From Geodermatophilus sp. DSM 45219 (GTDB lineage: Bacteria; Actinomycetota; Actinomycetes; Mycobacteriales; Geodermatophilaceae): a DNA stretch of 64,000 nucleotides. The position numbers were made by a program, and so were the translations under genes. Of the stretch, positions 40,988-46,339 are shown one piece after another. Under the pieces are notes generated by a model, which was not told the DNA's origin, made no database searches, and saw nothing but the letters and a program-made list of their open reading frames with translations. The DNA lies in the NCBI RefSeq assembly GCF_900104025.1, contig NZ_FNIQ01000003.1, positions 620,001 to 684,000 of the forward strand. Reading direction: 5' to 3'. Each line of letters opens with the position of its first letter. The stretch's first letter is position 1.

Positions 40988-41272
40988 AGGTCCCCCTGCC
41001 TGACTGCTGTCCCGGGTCCAGGTCCGGACCGGCGGGTCCCTCGCAACGTAGGTCCCACCCGTCCGCCCTGTCTCGCCTGTCGACGGGACGGACCGACGGC
41101 GGACCGTGAGGAGGGGGCGACACCCCGCAGCCCCTAACGCACAGTCAGCGGGCATCCCCCAACGACGCCGGACGACGGGGGCGCTCTCCCCGATGCCGGG
41201 GCGGGGCCGGTGGGAGTGGACTGCGCCGCAGCAGCCGACCGACGGCGGACGGCTCGGGACCCAGGAGTGCGC

Positions 41273-42460
41273 ATGTCCACCATCGCGAGCACGCTGCTCG
41301 ACTTCATCCTCGACCTGTTCCGCGACCCGGAGAAGGCCGCCGCCTACGAGGCGGACCCGCACGGCGCCCTGGAGGCCGCGGGCCTCGGGGGTACCACGCC
41401 GGAGGAGGTCGCCGACCTCGTGCCGATGGTGCAGGACTTCTCCACCTACGGCGGCTGGAACGGCGGCTACGACGACGCGGGCGGCCGCGGCCAGGACGAC
41501 GACGACGACGAGGGCGGCCGCGGCCGCGACTGCGACGCCGACGACCGGAGCGGTTCGTCCCCGAGCGCGGCCGACGACGACGACCACCACCACGGCGACG
41601 TCGAGCCGGCCCGGCGGCCCGACCACGACGAGCACGACCACGGCCACGGTCACTCCCCCGCGCCGGTCGGCGGCACCGAGACGGTGGTCATCACCCACCT
41701 GCAGGAGGTGCACTACGCGCACACCGAGACCACGGTGGAGATCGACGCCTCGCACAGCATCTGGGTGAGCGGCGACGCGCAGGCGATCTTCGGCGAGGTG
41801 GAGGGCGACGTCACCAAGATCGACAACGACGGCGGCATCGTCGCCGGCGACGACGTCGAGGACGTCTCGATCGACAACAGCGACAACTCGGTGAGCGACT
41901 CCTACAACACCGACGTCGAGGTCGACATCGAGGACAGCCCGATCAACGTCGGTGGCTCGCAGGCCGTGGACAGCTTCAACGGCAACGAGGACAACGACGT
42001 GACCGCCGACGACGGCGGTCAGGTCGGCGACAACACCTCCGTGCGGGTGGACGACGTCACCGTGGTCAGCGACTCGGAGAACGTCGGCAACACCACCACG
42101 GTGACCGACAGCTTCAACGACGAGTCCGACAACTCGGTCGAGGTCGAGGTGGAGGACTCGTTCAACGACAACTCCACGGACAACCAGGACTCGTTCAACG
42201 ACAACTCCACGGACGTCGACGTCCAGGACTCGTTCAACGACAACTCGTCGGACGACGACGTCGACAACTCGTCGGACGACGACGTCGAGGTCGAGGTGGA
42301 GGACTCGTTCAACGACAACTCCGAGCGGACCGACAACTCCGACAACTCGATCAACGACTCCTTCGACGACGAGTCGGACAACTCGACGGACATCGACGTC
42401 GACGACAGCGGCAACGACAACTCGGTGAACGACTCCGTGGTCGACTCCGAGATCGACTGA
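41273..42460 (+). CDS. IniB N-terminal domain-containing acidic repeat protein
   Basis: A 395-residue protein. Residues 1-57 are an IniB N-terminal motif (TLLDFILDLFRDPEKAAAYE, PHGALEAAGL). A Gly/Asp/His-rich linker (about 58-128) follows, then a beta-rich segment (ETVVITHLQEVHYAHTE). The C-terminal half is built from DSFN-type repeats (seven DSF units, five reading DSFND) rich in Asp, Asn and Ser, with very few positive charges. Such acidic Asn/Asp repeats suggest cation binding or a secreted/adhesive role. No signal peptide is visible. The 285-nt divergent upstream gap has no clear motif; CCCCTAACG and CCCCAACG repeats are there. Confidence 0.88.
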   Translation: MSTIASTLLDFILDLFRDPEKAAAYEADPHGALEAAGLGGTTPEEVADLVPMVQDFSTYGGWNGGYDDAGGRGQDDDDDEGGRGRDCDADDRSGSSPSAADDDDHHHGDVEPARRPDHDEHDHGHGHSPAPVGGTETVVITHLQEVHYAHTETTVEIDASHSIWVSGDAQAIFGEVEGDVTKIDNDGGIVAGDDVEDVSIDNSDNSVSDSYNTDVEVDIEDSPINVGGSQAVDSFNGNEDNDVTADDGGQVGDNTSVRVDDVTVVSDSENVGNTTTVTDSFNDESDNSVEVEVEDSFNDNSTDNQDSFNDNSTDVDVQDSFNDNSSDDDVDNSSDDDVEVEVEDSFNDNSERTDNSDNSINDSFDDESDNSTDIDVDDSGNDNSVNDSVVDSEID

Positions 42461-42517: not shown

Positions 42518-42573
42518 CGCGCTCTGTCCCCGACGGCCCGCCGGTGGTAGGAACCGGTGCCCAGGAGGTGTCC

Positions 42574-44379
42574 GTGGTCACGACGGTCCAGGTGCTCGAC
42601 CGCGCGCTGGCGCTGGCCGAGGCGTGCGAGCGGCCAGACCTGCACCGGCGGCTGCTGCAGGCCCGCGCCCGCAGCGAGGACCCGCGGGTCCGGGTGCTCG
42701 TCGTCGGTGAGCCCAAGCAGGGCAAGAGCTCGCTGGTCAACGCCCTGGTCGGCGCGCCGGTCTGCCCGGTGGCCGACGACGTGGCCACCGTCGTCCCCAC
42801 GGTGGTGCGGGCCGGCGAGGCCCCGCGGGCCAGCCTGGTGCTCGCCACGGGGTCGCGGGCCGACGACGACGGGCCCACCGAGCGGGTGCCGGTGCCCATC
42901 GACCAGGTGGCCTCCCGGGTGACCGGCGAGGGGACCGAGCGGCTGGTGCAGGCCGAGGTGGAGCTGCCCCGCCGGCTGCTCGACGGTCTGGAGATCGTCG
43001 ACACCGCCGGGGTGGGCGGCGTGGGCTCGCACCGGGCGCTGCGCACCGTCGACCTGCTGCCCACCGCCGACGCCGTCCTGCTGGTGTCCGACGCCAGCCA
43101 GGAGTTCACCGCCCCGGAGATGGCCTTCCTGGAACAGGCCGCGGCGCTGTGCCCGACCGTGGTCTGCGTGCTGACCAAGACCGACGCCTGCCCGCACTGG
43201 CGGGAGGTGGCCGAGCTCGACCGCGGCCACCTGGCGGGCCGCGGGGTCGAGGCGCCGGTGTTCGCGGTCTCCTCCGCGCTGGCCCAGCTCGCCGTGCAGC
43301 ACCGCGACCGCGAGCTGCACGAGGAGTCGGGGATCGGCGCCCTGGTCACCCACCTGCGCCGCGAGGTGGCCGACCGCGCCGAGGTGCTGGCGCGCCGGGC
43401 GCTGGTGCACGACCTCACCGCGGTCACCGACCACCTGTCCCTGGCGGTGCGCTCGGAGCTGGCCGGCCTGGAGGACCCGGCGCACCGCGACGAGCTGCTG
43501 CGCGGTCTGGAGGACGCCCGCGCCGCCGCGGACGACCTGCGCCGCCGCTCGTCGCGCTGGCAGCAGGTGCTCGCCGACGGCGTGGCCGACCTGGTGGCCG
43601 ACATCGACTTCGACCTGCGCGACCGCTCGCGCACGGTGATCCGCGAGGCCGAGGAGGCCATCGACGCCCAGGACCCCGGCCCCATGTGGCCCGAGCTCGC
43701 CGAGTGGCTGGACCGGCGGATCGCCGCGGCCGTCGCCGACAGCTACGTGTGGGCCGAGCAGCGCTCCGAGTGGCTGGCGGCGCGGGTGATCGAGCAGTTC
43801 GCCAAGGACGGCGGCGGTGCGGTGCCCGCGCTGTCGGTCGGCGCGGCCGGCGACGCGCTGGAGGGCCTGGTGGACCTGCCGGAGCTGGACGACGGCTCGA
43901 TGACGCTGCGCGAGCGGACTCTCATCGGGCTGCGCGGTTCCTACACCGGCGTCCTGATGACCGGACTGGTCACCAGCCTGGCGGGGATGGCGATCATCAA
44001 CCCGGTCTCGGTCGCCGCCGGCGTGCTGCTGGGGCGTAAGGCCTACAACGACGACAAGCAGCAGCGCCTGCAGCGGCGTCGGTCGGACGCGAAGGCCGTG
44101 GTGCGCCGGCACCTGGACGAGGTGGTGTTCCAGGTGGGCAAGCACCTCAAGGACCGGCTGCGCACCGTCTCCCGCACGCTGCGCGACCTGATCAGCGACA
44201 CCGCCGACGAGATGGCCCGGTCGCTGGCCGACGCCGTGGCCGCCGCCCAGCGTTCGACCCGCGAGGCCACCGCCGAGCGGGACGCCCGCATCCGCGCCCT
44301 GCGGCAGCGGCGCGAGCAGCTCGACCGGCTGGCCGCCGACGTCCGCGCGCTGGGCAGGGCGGCGGTGCCCGCCACGTGA
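42574..44379 (+). CDS. Dynamin-family GTPase (IniA-like)
   Basis: A 601-residue dynamin-like protein. GTPase domain: P-loop GEPKQGKSSLVNAL, G2-type Thr region VATVVPTVV, G3 DTAGVGG, G4 TKTD. Long helical stalk (about 240-430), a hydrophobic paddle-like hairpin (YTGVLMTGLVTSLAGMAIINPVSVAAGVLLG) and a C-terminal helical bundle. The mycobacterial IniA remodels membranes and relates to cell-wall stress tolerance. GTG 42574 with AGGAGG 6 nt upstream. The stop overlaps the first 77-bp unit as GTGA. Confidence 0.92.
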   Translation: MVTTVQVLDRALALAEACERPDLHRRLLQARARSEDPRVRVLVVGEPKQGKSSLVNALVGAPVCPVADDVATVVPTVVRAGEAPRASLVLATGSRADDDGPTERVPVPIDQVASRVTGEGTERLVQAEVELPRRLLDGLEIVDTAGVGGVGSHRALRTVDLLPTADAVLLVSDASQEFTAPEMAFLEQAAALCPTVVCVLTKTDACPHWREVAELDRGHLAGRGVEAPVFAVSSALAQLAVQHRDRELHEESGIGALVTHLRREVADRAEVLARRALVHDLTAVTDHLSLAVRSELAGLEDPAHRDELLRGLEDARAAADDLRRRSSRWQQVLADGVADLVADIDFDLRDRSRTVIREAEEAIDAQDPGPMWPELAEWLDRRIAAAVADSYVWAEQRSEWLAARVIEQFAKDGGGAVPALSVGAAGDALEGLVDLPELDDGSMTLRERTLIGLRGSYTGVLMTGLVTSLAGMAIINPVSVAAGVLLGRKAYNDDKQQRLQRRRSDAKAVVRRHLDEVVFQVGKHLKDRLRTVSRTLRDLISDTADEMARSLADAVAAAQRSTREATAERDARIRALRQRREQLDRLAADVRALGRAAVPAT

Positions 44380-44683
44380 CCGAGCCCGCGAGGTCACGCA
44401 GGGGTACAGCACCGCCGGGCACGGGGACGACGAGCGCCGGCGAGGAGGGCACGTGACCGAGCCCGCGAGGTCACGCAGGGGTACAGCACCGCCGGGCATG
44501 GGGACGACGAGCGCCGGCGAGGAGGGCACGTGACCGAGCCCGCGAGGTCACGCAGGGGTACAGCACCGCCGGGCATGGGGACGACGAGCGCCGGCGAGGA
44601 GGGCACGTGACCGAGCCCGCGAGGTCACGCAGGGGTACAGCACCGCCGGGCACGGGGACGACGAGCGCCGGCGAGGAGGCCAC
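44376..44683 (+). repeat. Four 77-bp tandem repeats, each a coupled 26-codon mini-ORF
   Basis: Exactly four 77-bp units start at 44376, 44453, 44530 and 44607. Each begins GTGACCGAG, contains CACGCAGGGGTACAGCACC, and ends with GGCGAGGAGGGCAC, i.e. an RBS before the next GTG. Each encodes a frame of 26 residues (starting MTEPARSRRGTAPP, ending TTSAGEEGT) whose TGA overlaps the next GTG as GTGA: 44376-44456, 44453-44533, 44530-44610, 44607-44687. The iniA-like stop overlaps the first start and the last stop overlaps the iniC-like start. Units 2 and 3 have CATG in place of CACG. GTGACC/GGTCAC pair within each unit, so the start can be in a stem. Confidence 0.92.
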
Positions 44684-46339
44684 GTGACCGAGCTGGACGA
44701 CGTCCGGGCGCTGCTCGACGAGGCGCTGGCCCGCTACCAGGACGTACCCGCGGTCGCCGACCGGCTCGCGGCGCAGCGGCGGCGGCTGGACGAGCCGCTG
44801 CGCCTGGCGCTGGTCGGGCGGGTGAAGTCGGGCAAGTCGACGCTGCTCAACGCCCTGGTCGGCGCGCGGGTGGCGCCCACCGACGCCGGCGAGTGCACCC
44901 GGGTGGTCACCCACTACCGGCACGGCGCCACCCCGCGGGTGGAGCTGCACGGCACCGACGGCGGCCGGCGGACCCTGCCGGTGCGCCGCGCGGACGGCGG
45001 CCTGCGGCTGGAGCTCGGCGGCACCCCGCCGGAGGAGGTCGCGCAGCTGGTCGTGGACTGGCCGGCCGACGACCTGCGGCCGGCGACCGTCGTCGACACC
45101 CCGGGGATCGCGTCGCTGTCGACCGGCACCAGCACGCGCACCCGCGAGTTCCTCGGCACCGACCAGGGGCCGGCCGGCGCCGACGCCGTCGTCTTCCTCA
45201 CCCGCCAGCCGCAGCCCGAGGACGTCGCCGTCCTGGCCGCCTTCCAGGCCGGCACCGGCGGAGCGGGCGCGCTGACGACGACGATCACCGTGCTCTCCCG
45301 CGCCGACGAGGTCGGGGCCGGGCGGCTCGACGCGCTGGCCGCCGCGGAGTCGGTGGCCCGGCGGATGTCGGCCGACCCGCAGGTGCGCGCGGTGAGCTCG
45401 GCGGTGCTGCCGGTGGCCGGGCTGCTGGCGCTGGCCGGCCGGACCCTGCGGCACGGCGACTTCGTCGCGCTGCGCACGCTGGCCTCGGCCGACCAGCAGC
45501 AGGTGTCCCGGATGCTGCTGACCGCGGACCGGTTCACCCGGGCCGACGCGCCGGTGCCGCTGTCGGTGGAGGTGCGGGCCGCGTTGCTGGACCGGCTGGG
45601 CCTGTTCGGCATCCGGCTGTCGGTCGCCCTGGTGCGGACCGGCGTCCCCGACGCCTCGGCGCTGGCCGACGAGCTGCTGGCCCGCAGCGGGCTGGCCGAG
45701 CTGCAGCGGCTGCTGCGGGTGCAGTTCACCGAGCGGGGCACGCAGCTGCGGGCCGGGACGGCGCTGCGGCTGCTGGCCGACGTCCTCGACGAGCACCCGC
45801 TCCCCGCGGACGACGACCTGCGGGCGGACCTGGAGCGGCTGCGCCTGGCCACCCCCGACCTGGCGGAGCTCGACCTGCTGGCCCGCTCCCGCGCGGCGGC
45901 CGGCCCGCTGCCGGAGCACCTGCGGGCCGAGGCGGAGGGCCTGCTCGGCGCCGCGGGCACCGGCCCGGCCGCCCGGCTGGGCCTGCCGGAGGGCACCCCG
46001 GACGGGCAGCTGCGGCGGGCCGCCCTGGACGCGCTGGCCCGCTGGCGCGACGCCGCCGACGACCCGCTGGCCTGGCGGGCGACGGCGGACGCCGCGGAGG
46101 TCGTCGTCCGGGCCTGCGAGCGCCTGCTCGCCGGGCTGGACCGGTCAGCCGCGGAAGGCCCGGGCCGAGCGGCTCAGCAGCGGGACGGGGGCGACCACGA
46201 ACAGCCCGGCGGCGGCTACGAACGCCCACCGGTCGAGGTCGGCGCCCCCGGCGACGACGGTCTGGGCGACGTCGAGCGCGAGCACGGCCGGCACCGCGGT
46301 GAGCAGCAGCGCCCAGCGCGCCCAGCCGCGCCCGCGTAG
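44684..46339 (+). CDS. Dynamin-family GTPase (IniC-like)
   Basis: A 551-residue dynamin-like protein. GTPase motifs: GRVKSGKSTLLNALVG, VVDTPGIASL, and LSRADEVG. Helical bundle to about residue 490. From about residue 487 onward the frame reads a Pro/Gly/Arg-rich antisense of the opposite-strand membrane gene and lacks family character, so the functional end is probably near 46150 and the tail of 60-65 residues is read-through. The normal IniC length is about 490. GTG 44684 with GAGGAGG of the last repeat unit directly before. It partners with the upstream GTPase as IniA-IniC do. Confidence 0.88.
   Translation: MTELDDVRALLDEALARYQDVPAVADRLAAQRRRLDEPLRLALVGRVKSGKSTLLNALVGARVAPTDAGECTRVVTHYRHGATPRVELHGTDGGRRTLPVRRADGGLRLELGGTPPEEVAQLVVDWPADDLRPATVVDTPGIASLSTGTSTRTREFLGTDQGPAGADAVVFLTRQPQPEDVAVLAAFQAGTGGAGALTTTITVLSRADEVGAGRLDALAAAESVARRMSADPQVRAVSSAVLPVAGLLALAGRTLRHGDFVALRTLASADQQQVSRMLLTADRFTRADAPVPLSVEVRAALLDRLGLFGIRLSVALVRTGVPDASALADELLARSGLAELQRLLRVQFTERGTQLRAGTALRLLADVLDEHPLPADDDLRADLERLRLATPDLAELDLLARSRAAAGPLPEHLRAEAEGLLGAAGTGPAARLGLPEGTPDGQLRRAALDALARWRDAADDPLAWRATADAAEVVVRACERLLAGLDRSAAEGPGRAAQQRDGGDHEQPGGGYERPPVEVGAPGDDGLGDVEREHGRHRGEQQRPARPAAPA

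Follow-up and report, generated by a model that had tools for sequence, protein, structure and literature searches.

A dispersed 77-bp repeat of Geodermatophilus as a probable MIRU-like mobile element at stop-start overlaps

Mycobacterial interspersed repetitive units (MIRUs), reportedly going back to Supply et al. (1997), represent a type of element that to our knowledge has been described from mycobacteria only, and we know of no account of how such elements move. In the passages of PMC12548453 and PMC4213456 that deal with them, MIRUs are repeats of 77 or 53 bp that harbor a mini-open reading frame (mini-ORF) and are coupled by -4 overlaps at start codons; the corresponding parts of PMC4213456 and PMC2453075 report 77-bp and 53-bp units in the senX3-regX3 region and in ETR-D/MIRU04, respectively. 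The present analysis concerns a window of 64,000 nucleotides from Geodermatophilus sp. DSM 45219 (contig NZ_FNIQ01000003.1, positions 620,001 to 684,000), in which four tandem 77-bp units lie between two genes for dynamin-like GTPases. Very probably, these repeats represent a small mobile element, non-autonomous and like a MIRU in the way it works, which is present in four tandem copies and keeps the translation of its operon coupled. The author of an earlier note on this DNA had known of no such described system; the similar design of MIRUs in the passages cited above (PMC12548453, PMC4213456) corrects that view.

Two further groups of mobile elements are relevant to the unit. IS200/IS605 elements and REP/RAYT have subterminal hairpins and a short-sequence target, and both traits recur in the 77-bp unit. 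The relevant parts of PMC11187229 and PMC11208158 describe seekRNAs as molecules of 70–100 nt, and the guides of IS110/IS1111 elements as containing two short target matches, one per strand. Open-access literature searches found neither the unit sequence nor MIRU-like elements in actinobacteria; one paper on MIRU-like elements turned up, which by its listing deals with Trichodesmium.

A dispersed family at stop-start overlaps

The four units (44376–44683; Table 1) were recovered concordantly from the sequence, the ORF list and a tandem repeat finder, which reported 44373–44693 with a period of 77, 4.2 copies and 98% matches. Relative to unit 1, units 2 and 3 carry a C-to-T change at unit position 47, and unit 4 a G-to-C change at position 74. 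Each unit contains a mini-ORF of 26 codons whose TGA is shared with the next GTG in a GTGA junction; the first mini-ORF starts on the stop of a 611-codon ORF, and the stop of the fourth overlaps the start of a 551-codon ORF. The earlier note had described this arrangement correctly, including the GAGGAGG motif, the inverted repeat GTGACC/GGTCAC and the flanks GCCAC/GTGACCGAG present at both ends of the array, and its relay of overlapping mini-ORFs is borne out by the ORF list as an arrangement of frames.

The same note had taken the unit for a local duplication, whereas comparison with its own genome revealed a dispersed element: 47 places matched at E≤10 and 36 at E<1e-3, the four window units included. 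Of these 47 places, 38 were fetched and 31 aligned (two window units almost the same as unit 1 were left out, as were five matches that were partial or arose by chance), and 33 near-complete copies were examined in this genome. A covariance model built from the 31-unit alignment gave 4–95 matches per genome in all 25 genus genomes submitted to it (own included), and in a 298-genome sample of the order it matched 37 of the 39 genomes from other genera of the family at E≤1e-4; both counts are constrained by the filters applied and by how many candidates were scored, and the 174 sampled genomes without a match, which were not listed, were taken as belonging to other families. The range of matches per genus genome makes recent expansions in some species possible.

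Weaker matches were also found in other families of the order, and one genome outside the family contained 54 matches at E≤1e-6. When eight incomplete rows were set aside, 28 distinct units from outside the family had NTGA at both ends; their lengths were 65, 74, 75, 77, 78 and 80 bp, and 25 of the 28 were 2 mod 3. The related 65-bp units in other families (L353, L350, L362, L364 and L368) have the same start and a shorter middle, and are 2 mod 3. The complete genome G024 gave 80 matches, corresponding to 78 distinct units, of which 61 had NTGA at both ends and 17 were incomplete. Two of the G024 units (L154 and L156) are 101 bp long and apparently contain a 24-bp inserted inverted repeat, with the 2 mod 3 length and the open mini-ORF retained.

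Comparison of occupied and empty loci places the family at overlaps of stop and start codons. At the iniC site, a unit or remnant was present in 3 of 13 loci, and in relatives the ten empty loci all showed a plain NTGA overlap of 4 nt (several judged by eye), in agreement with the ancestral direct overlap proposed in the earlier note. Three further host sites, named from a reading of the protein and not from a database result, contained a unit or remnant in 6 of 26 loci (fliG-like), 2 of 26 (hemC-like) and 4 of 25 (alr-like). Across the four sites, 15 loci were occupied by a unit or remnant and 75 were empty, 73 of the latter being direct 4-nt NTGA overlaps; the paralogs L082, L188–L190 and L242 were excluded from this census. 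By eye, a remnant below threshold can be seen at L214, one of the hemC loci scored as empty. At L070, L214 (by eye) and L215, the downstream gene seemingly begins with a fused 5' remnant of a unit, like decayed units turned into N-terminal extensions.

Placement relative to genes was also distinct in the G024 census: first units started on the stop of a coding-like ORF in 42 of 57 cases, compared with 81 of 1155 control RTGA sites, and last units ended on a coding-like start in 55 of 57, compared with 556 of 1155. A target-site duplication extending beyond NTGA was considered and rejected, as left-flank positions -6 to -1 are unlike the bases before the second NTGA; agreement at position -7 (34/119 against 26.5 expected, 5/2000 shuffles) was treated as chance.

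These observations suggest the following course. The element sits in one orientation at a 4-nt NTGA overlap by which, in element-free relatives, the two genes are joined directly, and it would move by mobility machinery acting in trans. It supplies a 26-codon mini-ORF, a Shine-Dalgarno (SD)-like motif and a repeated NTGA, so that the chain of upstream gene, mini-ORF and downstream gene keeps its -4 overlaps; with coupling retained, insertion inside operons would be tolerated. The window array probably arose from one insertion followed by tandem amplification, because its units are near-identical and relatives have single, decayed or absent units.

Reading frame, hairpins and proposed translational coupling

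The pooled units analyzed below come from ten genomes, with full censuses of G000 and G024 and the best-scoring matches of the other eight. Held-out units were likewise best-scoring matches, and both sets therefore contain too few short, long and decayed units. Sites were grouped heuristically by flank similarity, and the shuffles ignore relatedness among elements.

Unit length is strongly tied to the reading frame. Among 160 pooled units (orthologs included), length was 2 mod 3 in 147, 0 in 10 and 1 in 3; among the 31 aligned units of the own genome, 27 were 2 mod 3 (77, 74 or 80 bp) and four were 0 mod 3, a length that places the mini-ORF in frame with the following sequence. In other genera, 57 of 58 units were 2 mod 3 with an open mini-ORF (four incomplete matches set aside), and 54 of the 61 full units of G024 had an internal mini-ORF overlapping the neighbours at its ends. 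An in-frame internal stop occurred in 1 of 137 77-nt units, compared with 8.6 expected from independent columns, while the two other frames were interrupted in 29 and 7 of the 137.

The last of these counts is what a neutral minisatellite with accidental open frames might yield, since tandem near-identical GC-rich DNA has few stops. Such an origin is nevertheless extremely improbable in view of the predominance of 2 mod 3 lengths in both the pooled set and the other genera, the dispersed copies, the NTGA-to-NTGA placement, the covariation described below and the non-random position of units relative to genes in G024.

Two hairpins enclose start codons. In hairpin A, positions 1–6 pair with 17–22 (94.1% of cells paired, compared with 87.7% in shuffles). 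Its pair 5-18 is retained with compensatory changes at 83 of 86 sites (one representative per site), against 42.3 in shuffles (0/5000), and pair 1-22 at 82 of 86 against 78.5 (2/5000); the start codon lies in a stem, as the earlier note had surmised. The core of hairpin B consists of 45–52 paired with 73–80, its loop holding most of the SD-like motif and its stem the downstream start codon. Pairs 48-77, 49-76, 50-75, 51-74 and 52-73 each covary across the 86 sites (0/5000 shuffles). In held-out genera, 5-18 (37/37 sites) and 50-75 (32/37) were each recovered with 0/10000 shuffles, 49-76 with 4/10000 and 52-73 with 30/10000. Hairpin A is present in the minimum-energy folds of window units 4, 3 and 1, and hairpin B in those of two other units (z -0.68 and -3.19). 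The holding of start codons in hairpins with covarying pairs seems to be a new feature.

Ribosomes coming from the upstream gene would melt these hairpins, and the downstream start would consequently be used mainly by ribosomes passed on from the mini-ORF. Alternatively, the units could serve the downstream gene as promoters or as RNA signals of another kind, given that the senX3-regX3 intergenic region of M. tuberculosis with its MIRUs can drive regX3 expression, according to the part of PMC4213456 that treats it. This is very unlikely for the present units: the promoter motif TANNNT was found in 0 of 160, and an Rfam search of 43800–45300 gave no match at E≤1.

Several points weigh against a mobile, MIRU-like coupling element. 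Some empty sites could reflect the loss of old units. The search for a mobilizing enzyme was aimed at Y1_Tnp, the transposase type that distinguishes IS200/IS605 and REP/RAYT from the unit, and not at IS110-type (DEDD) transposases; Y1_Tnp was found in 0 of 26 Geodermatophilus genomes (control positive in 5 of 14). The occurrence of GAGG, AGGA or GGAG within 15 nt ahead of the start in 160 of 160 units, and of GGAGG in 122 of 160, is partly by construction, as the search model itself contains the motif. The start-codon pairs 45-80 and 46-79 of hairpin B do not covary, and 47-78 does not to any notable degree (874/5000), these positions hardly varying. Folding of three window units (4, 3 and 1) gave stabilities like those of shuffled sequences (z -0.50, 0.31 and 0.20), and hairpin B is absent from their minimum-energy folds. 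It is also weakly kept among 23 pairs of orthologs, in which single changes kept a pair 14 times and broke one 19 times, and double changes kept three and broke two. In the held-out genera, 51-74 was not replicated (9002/10000) and 48-77 was replicated weakly (702/10000).

The match between unit and target

The unit contains an internal match to the site in which it lies. With D1–D3 denoting the host triplet that follows the downstream NTGA and L the positions of the left flank, a scan of all column pairs at 70 single-unit sites (the unit plus 30 bases of flank on either side) placed 43-D1, 37-D1, 41-D3, 38-D2, 39-D3 and 42-D2 within the top 22. Positions 37–39 were identical to D1–D3 at 42 of the 70 sites (9.3 in shuffles), and positions 41–43 paired fully with D1–D3 at 49 (15.0 in shuffles), with 0/5000 shuffles in either case. 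After removal of CCG and GCG targets, copy and pairing each remained at 20 of 35 sites (3.3 and 4.5 in shuffles). The window array follows this rule: each of its units carries CCG and CGG, and each is followed by GTGACCG. Bases drawn from 199 unit-free overlaps, deduplicated by a 30-base key so that orthologs may recur, would predict 6.5 exact copies.

The match was replicated in held-out genera with a test fixed beforehand (50 newly fetched loci, 37 sites): copy at 21 sites and pairing at 26, compared with 5.4 and 11.5 in shuffles (0/10000 each), and 10 of 16 for both without CCG and GCG (1.8 and 3.4). An earlier replication, including seven loci already looked at, had given 22/37 and 26/37, and 1 of its 37 sites resembled a discovery site. 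The signal appears confined to Geodermatophilaceae. Eleven 77-nt units of other families yielded one exact copy (0.6 in shuffles) and no target-match signal, and in a mixed set of 18 units (copy in 30/54 cells against 22.8, 45/5000; pairing in 35/54 against 31.6, 570/5000) the signal was owed mainly to seven Geodermatophilaceae units. This internal copy of the downstream triplet with its neighboring complement looks new. An apparent match of position 5 to the base after the downstream NTGA (71/97 sites against 46.1 in shuffles) was rejected as indirect, G at 5 together with C at 37 predicting a target C in 10 of 12 cases.

Three explanations of the match were weighed, and guide-directed insertion fits best, ahead of copying at insertion and of selection on the mRNA. 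Supplementing the MIRU-like reading rather than replacing it, it supposes that positions 36–39 copy and 41–47 complement the NTGA and the three bases beyond it, so that the element, in single-stranded or RNA form, could pair with both target strands while an enzyme acts in trans. The match suggests such base-paired target choice, recalling the guides of bridge RNAs and seekRNAs. The excess of copies and complements over shuffles and its replication argue for a guide, as does the persistence of the copy at 11 of 21 sites with incomplete 41–43 pairing (hand count). Exact copies were moreover as frequent in young units as in old ones (15/23, 15/23 and 12/24 from the youngest to the oldest third), an observation that favors a guide and templated rewriting alike and runs counter to selection, under which old copies should match better.

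Other observations fit a guide less well. No clear matching segment was found for the left flank of the target, where the signal is weak (L-1/23 at 41/70 against 32.7, 40/5000; L-1/24 at rank 20). The guides of bridge RNAs read opposite halves of the target, as described in the part of PMC11208158 concerned, whereas the two segments of the unit fall on one and the same triplet. Where orthologous units differ in D (8 pairs), they track it partly, the copy agreeing with the own D in 40 of 48 cells and with the other D in 32, and the pairing in 41 and 37. The 11 units of other families, as reported above, show no match. A guide role is plausible, at somewhat less than an even chance.

Under templated rewriting, target bases would be copied into the element at insertion, by template switching or target-primed synthesis, and the match would be a by-product; we know of no precedent for this. 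Among 689 close non-ortholog pairs, some of them array mates and thus not independent, positions 74 and 76 differ most (0.69 and 0.70) and 49–52 also differ, as though renewed. No source of the new bases at 74 and 76 was found. For the bases ahead of the second NTGA, no counterpart was found in the left flank or in another stretch of the target. The process is quite unlikely. At the fliG-like site, the matched bases lie in codons that are mostly conserved in relatives (by eye), so the host sequence has not simply been overwritten.

Post-insertion selection on the mRNA, which we regard as unlikely, would act on an extended hairpin of 41–52 with 73–84 that hides the downstream start and whose arms are tuned to host codons 2–3. 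The stem does span the start codon, D1 and position 43 changed together at one orthologous site (L106 compared with L329 and L280), and the high variability of the spacer 74–76 is as expected of tuning. Selection leaves the copy at 37–39 unexplained, as this segment cannot fold onto 41–43 across a 1-nt loop, and the weak conservation of hairpin B in orthologs also speaks against it.

Combining guide-directed insertion with the MIRU-like reading yields a composite that is possible but tentative: the 77-bp elements of Geodermatophilaceae, with diverged relatives elsewhere in the order, would carry their own target guide, namely a copy and an adjacent complement of NTGA and the three following bases that pair with both strands at stop-start overlaps, after which the mini-ORF and hairpins would keep coupling intact.

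Comparison with known systems and genomic context

The Geodermatophilus unit shares with MIRUs a short length of 77 bp, occurrence in tandem arrays, many dispersed copies in one genome (its own and G024), insertion at start codons where co-directional genes meet with a -4 overlap, and an internal mini-ORF that overlaps the neighbours at its ends; putative mycobacterial units also carry GAGGAGG ahead of the next start. It differs from them in its host, which is not a mycobacterium, and in the start-codon hairpins and internal copy and complement of the target, which belong to the Geodermatophilaceae unit.

For a direct comparison, 25 reference MIRU cores were obtained with a core pattern, in a genus of family f8 that we take to be Mycobacterium. 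Of 397 genomes of the order, 24 contained this pattern; 18 of the 24 belong to that genus, and in four of these 18 the listed places were 51–55 bp apart; a reversed control pattern was found in five genomes, once each among the matches listed. A profile search of MIRU against the unit gave a best score of 5.9 bits (best shuffle 5.4), with 125 weak matches on 160 real sequences and 44 on 800 shuffled ones, and the reverse search, run without a shuffle control, a best score of 2.5 bits. No convincing sequence homology emerged, the profiles not clearly recognizing each other, and the unit, although it works like a MIRU, is not assigned as one. The putative mycobacterial cores (L252–L276) show a weakly covarying hairpin with GAGGAGG in its loop (123/150 cells against 114.4, 32/5000), whose arms, as read, stop before the start codon, unlike those of the Geodermatophilus unit.

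For the target match, bridge RNAs and seekRNAs appear to be the nearest parallel, by analogy: in both, two overlapping target matches are found, one complementary to each strand, and the site is strict. The likeness is limited to three target bases in Geodermatophilaceae and extends neither to the left half of the target nor to other families. In contrast to those systems, the 77-bp unit has no transposase gene, and its two matches coincide on a single triplet, to one side of the target.

Both neighbours of the array are dynamin-like (PF00350), as the earlier note held, and the upstream one is close to the IniA structure 6j72 (E 2.5e-130). The name 'IniC-like' for the downstream product rests on gene order, with an IniB-domain protein and the IniA-like gene ahead; this gene has three named orthologs, all from Geodermatophilus, at 82–83% identity. 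Tandem repeats at 42153–42402, within the ORF of the IniB-like protein, apparently encode an Asp/Asn/Ser-rich stretch.

Table 1. Features of the repeat array and its neighbours, in window coordinates
Feature	Coordinates	Strand	Remarks and basis
IniB N-terminal domain protein, upstream	41210..42460	+	start codon uncertain; ORF list and domain match
Upstream host gene, IniA-like dynamin GTPase	42544..44379	+	PF00350; 6j72
Unit 1, 77 bp	44376..44452	+	starts on stop of IniA-like ORF; sequence, repeat finder, genome matches
Unit 2, 77 bp	44453..44529	+	sequence, repeat finder, genome matches
Unit 3, 77 bp	44530..44606	+	sequence, repeat finder, genome matches
Unit 4, 77 bp	44607..44683	+	followed by GTGA start of IniC-like ORF; sequence, repeat finder, genome matches
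Mini-ORF 1, 26 codons and stop	44376..44456	+	ORF list
Mini-ORF 2, 26 codons and stop	44453..44533	+	ORF list
Mini-ORF 3, 26 codons and stop	44530..44610	+	ORF list
Mini-ORF 4, 26 codons and stop	44607..44687	+	stop overlaps IniC-like start; ORF list
Hairpin A of unit 4 (positions 1–6 with 17–22)	44607..44628	+	contains the unit's own GTG; equivalent place in units 1–3; covariation
Positions 36–39 (ACCG) of unit 4	44642..44645	+	identical to 44687–44690 (A and three bases of IniC-like gene); target-match rule, letters
Hairpin B 5' arm of unit 4 (positions 41–52)	44647..44658	+	41–43 complement 44688–44690; rule from covariation and target match
SD-like GAGGAGG of unit 4	44673..44679	+	in hairpin B loop except last base; letters
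Hairpin B 3' arm of unit 4 (positions 73–84)	44679..44690	+	includes IniC-like start codon and three bases past GTGA; covariation/target-match rule
Downstream host gene, dynamin-like GTPase	44684..46339	+	IniC-like by gene order; PF00350

A MIRU-like design in a soil genus, with 4–95 model matches per species and many empty sites, makes both mobility and coupling directly testable in harmless organisms. Should the internal match be a guide, the unit would count as a self-guided mobile element of very small size; should it instead reflect mRNA structure, the family would constitute a large natural set of coupling modules.

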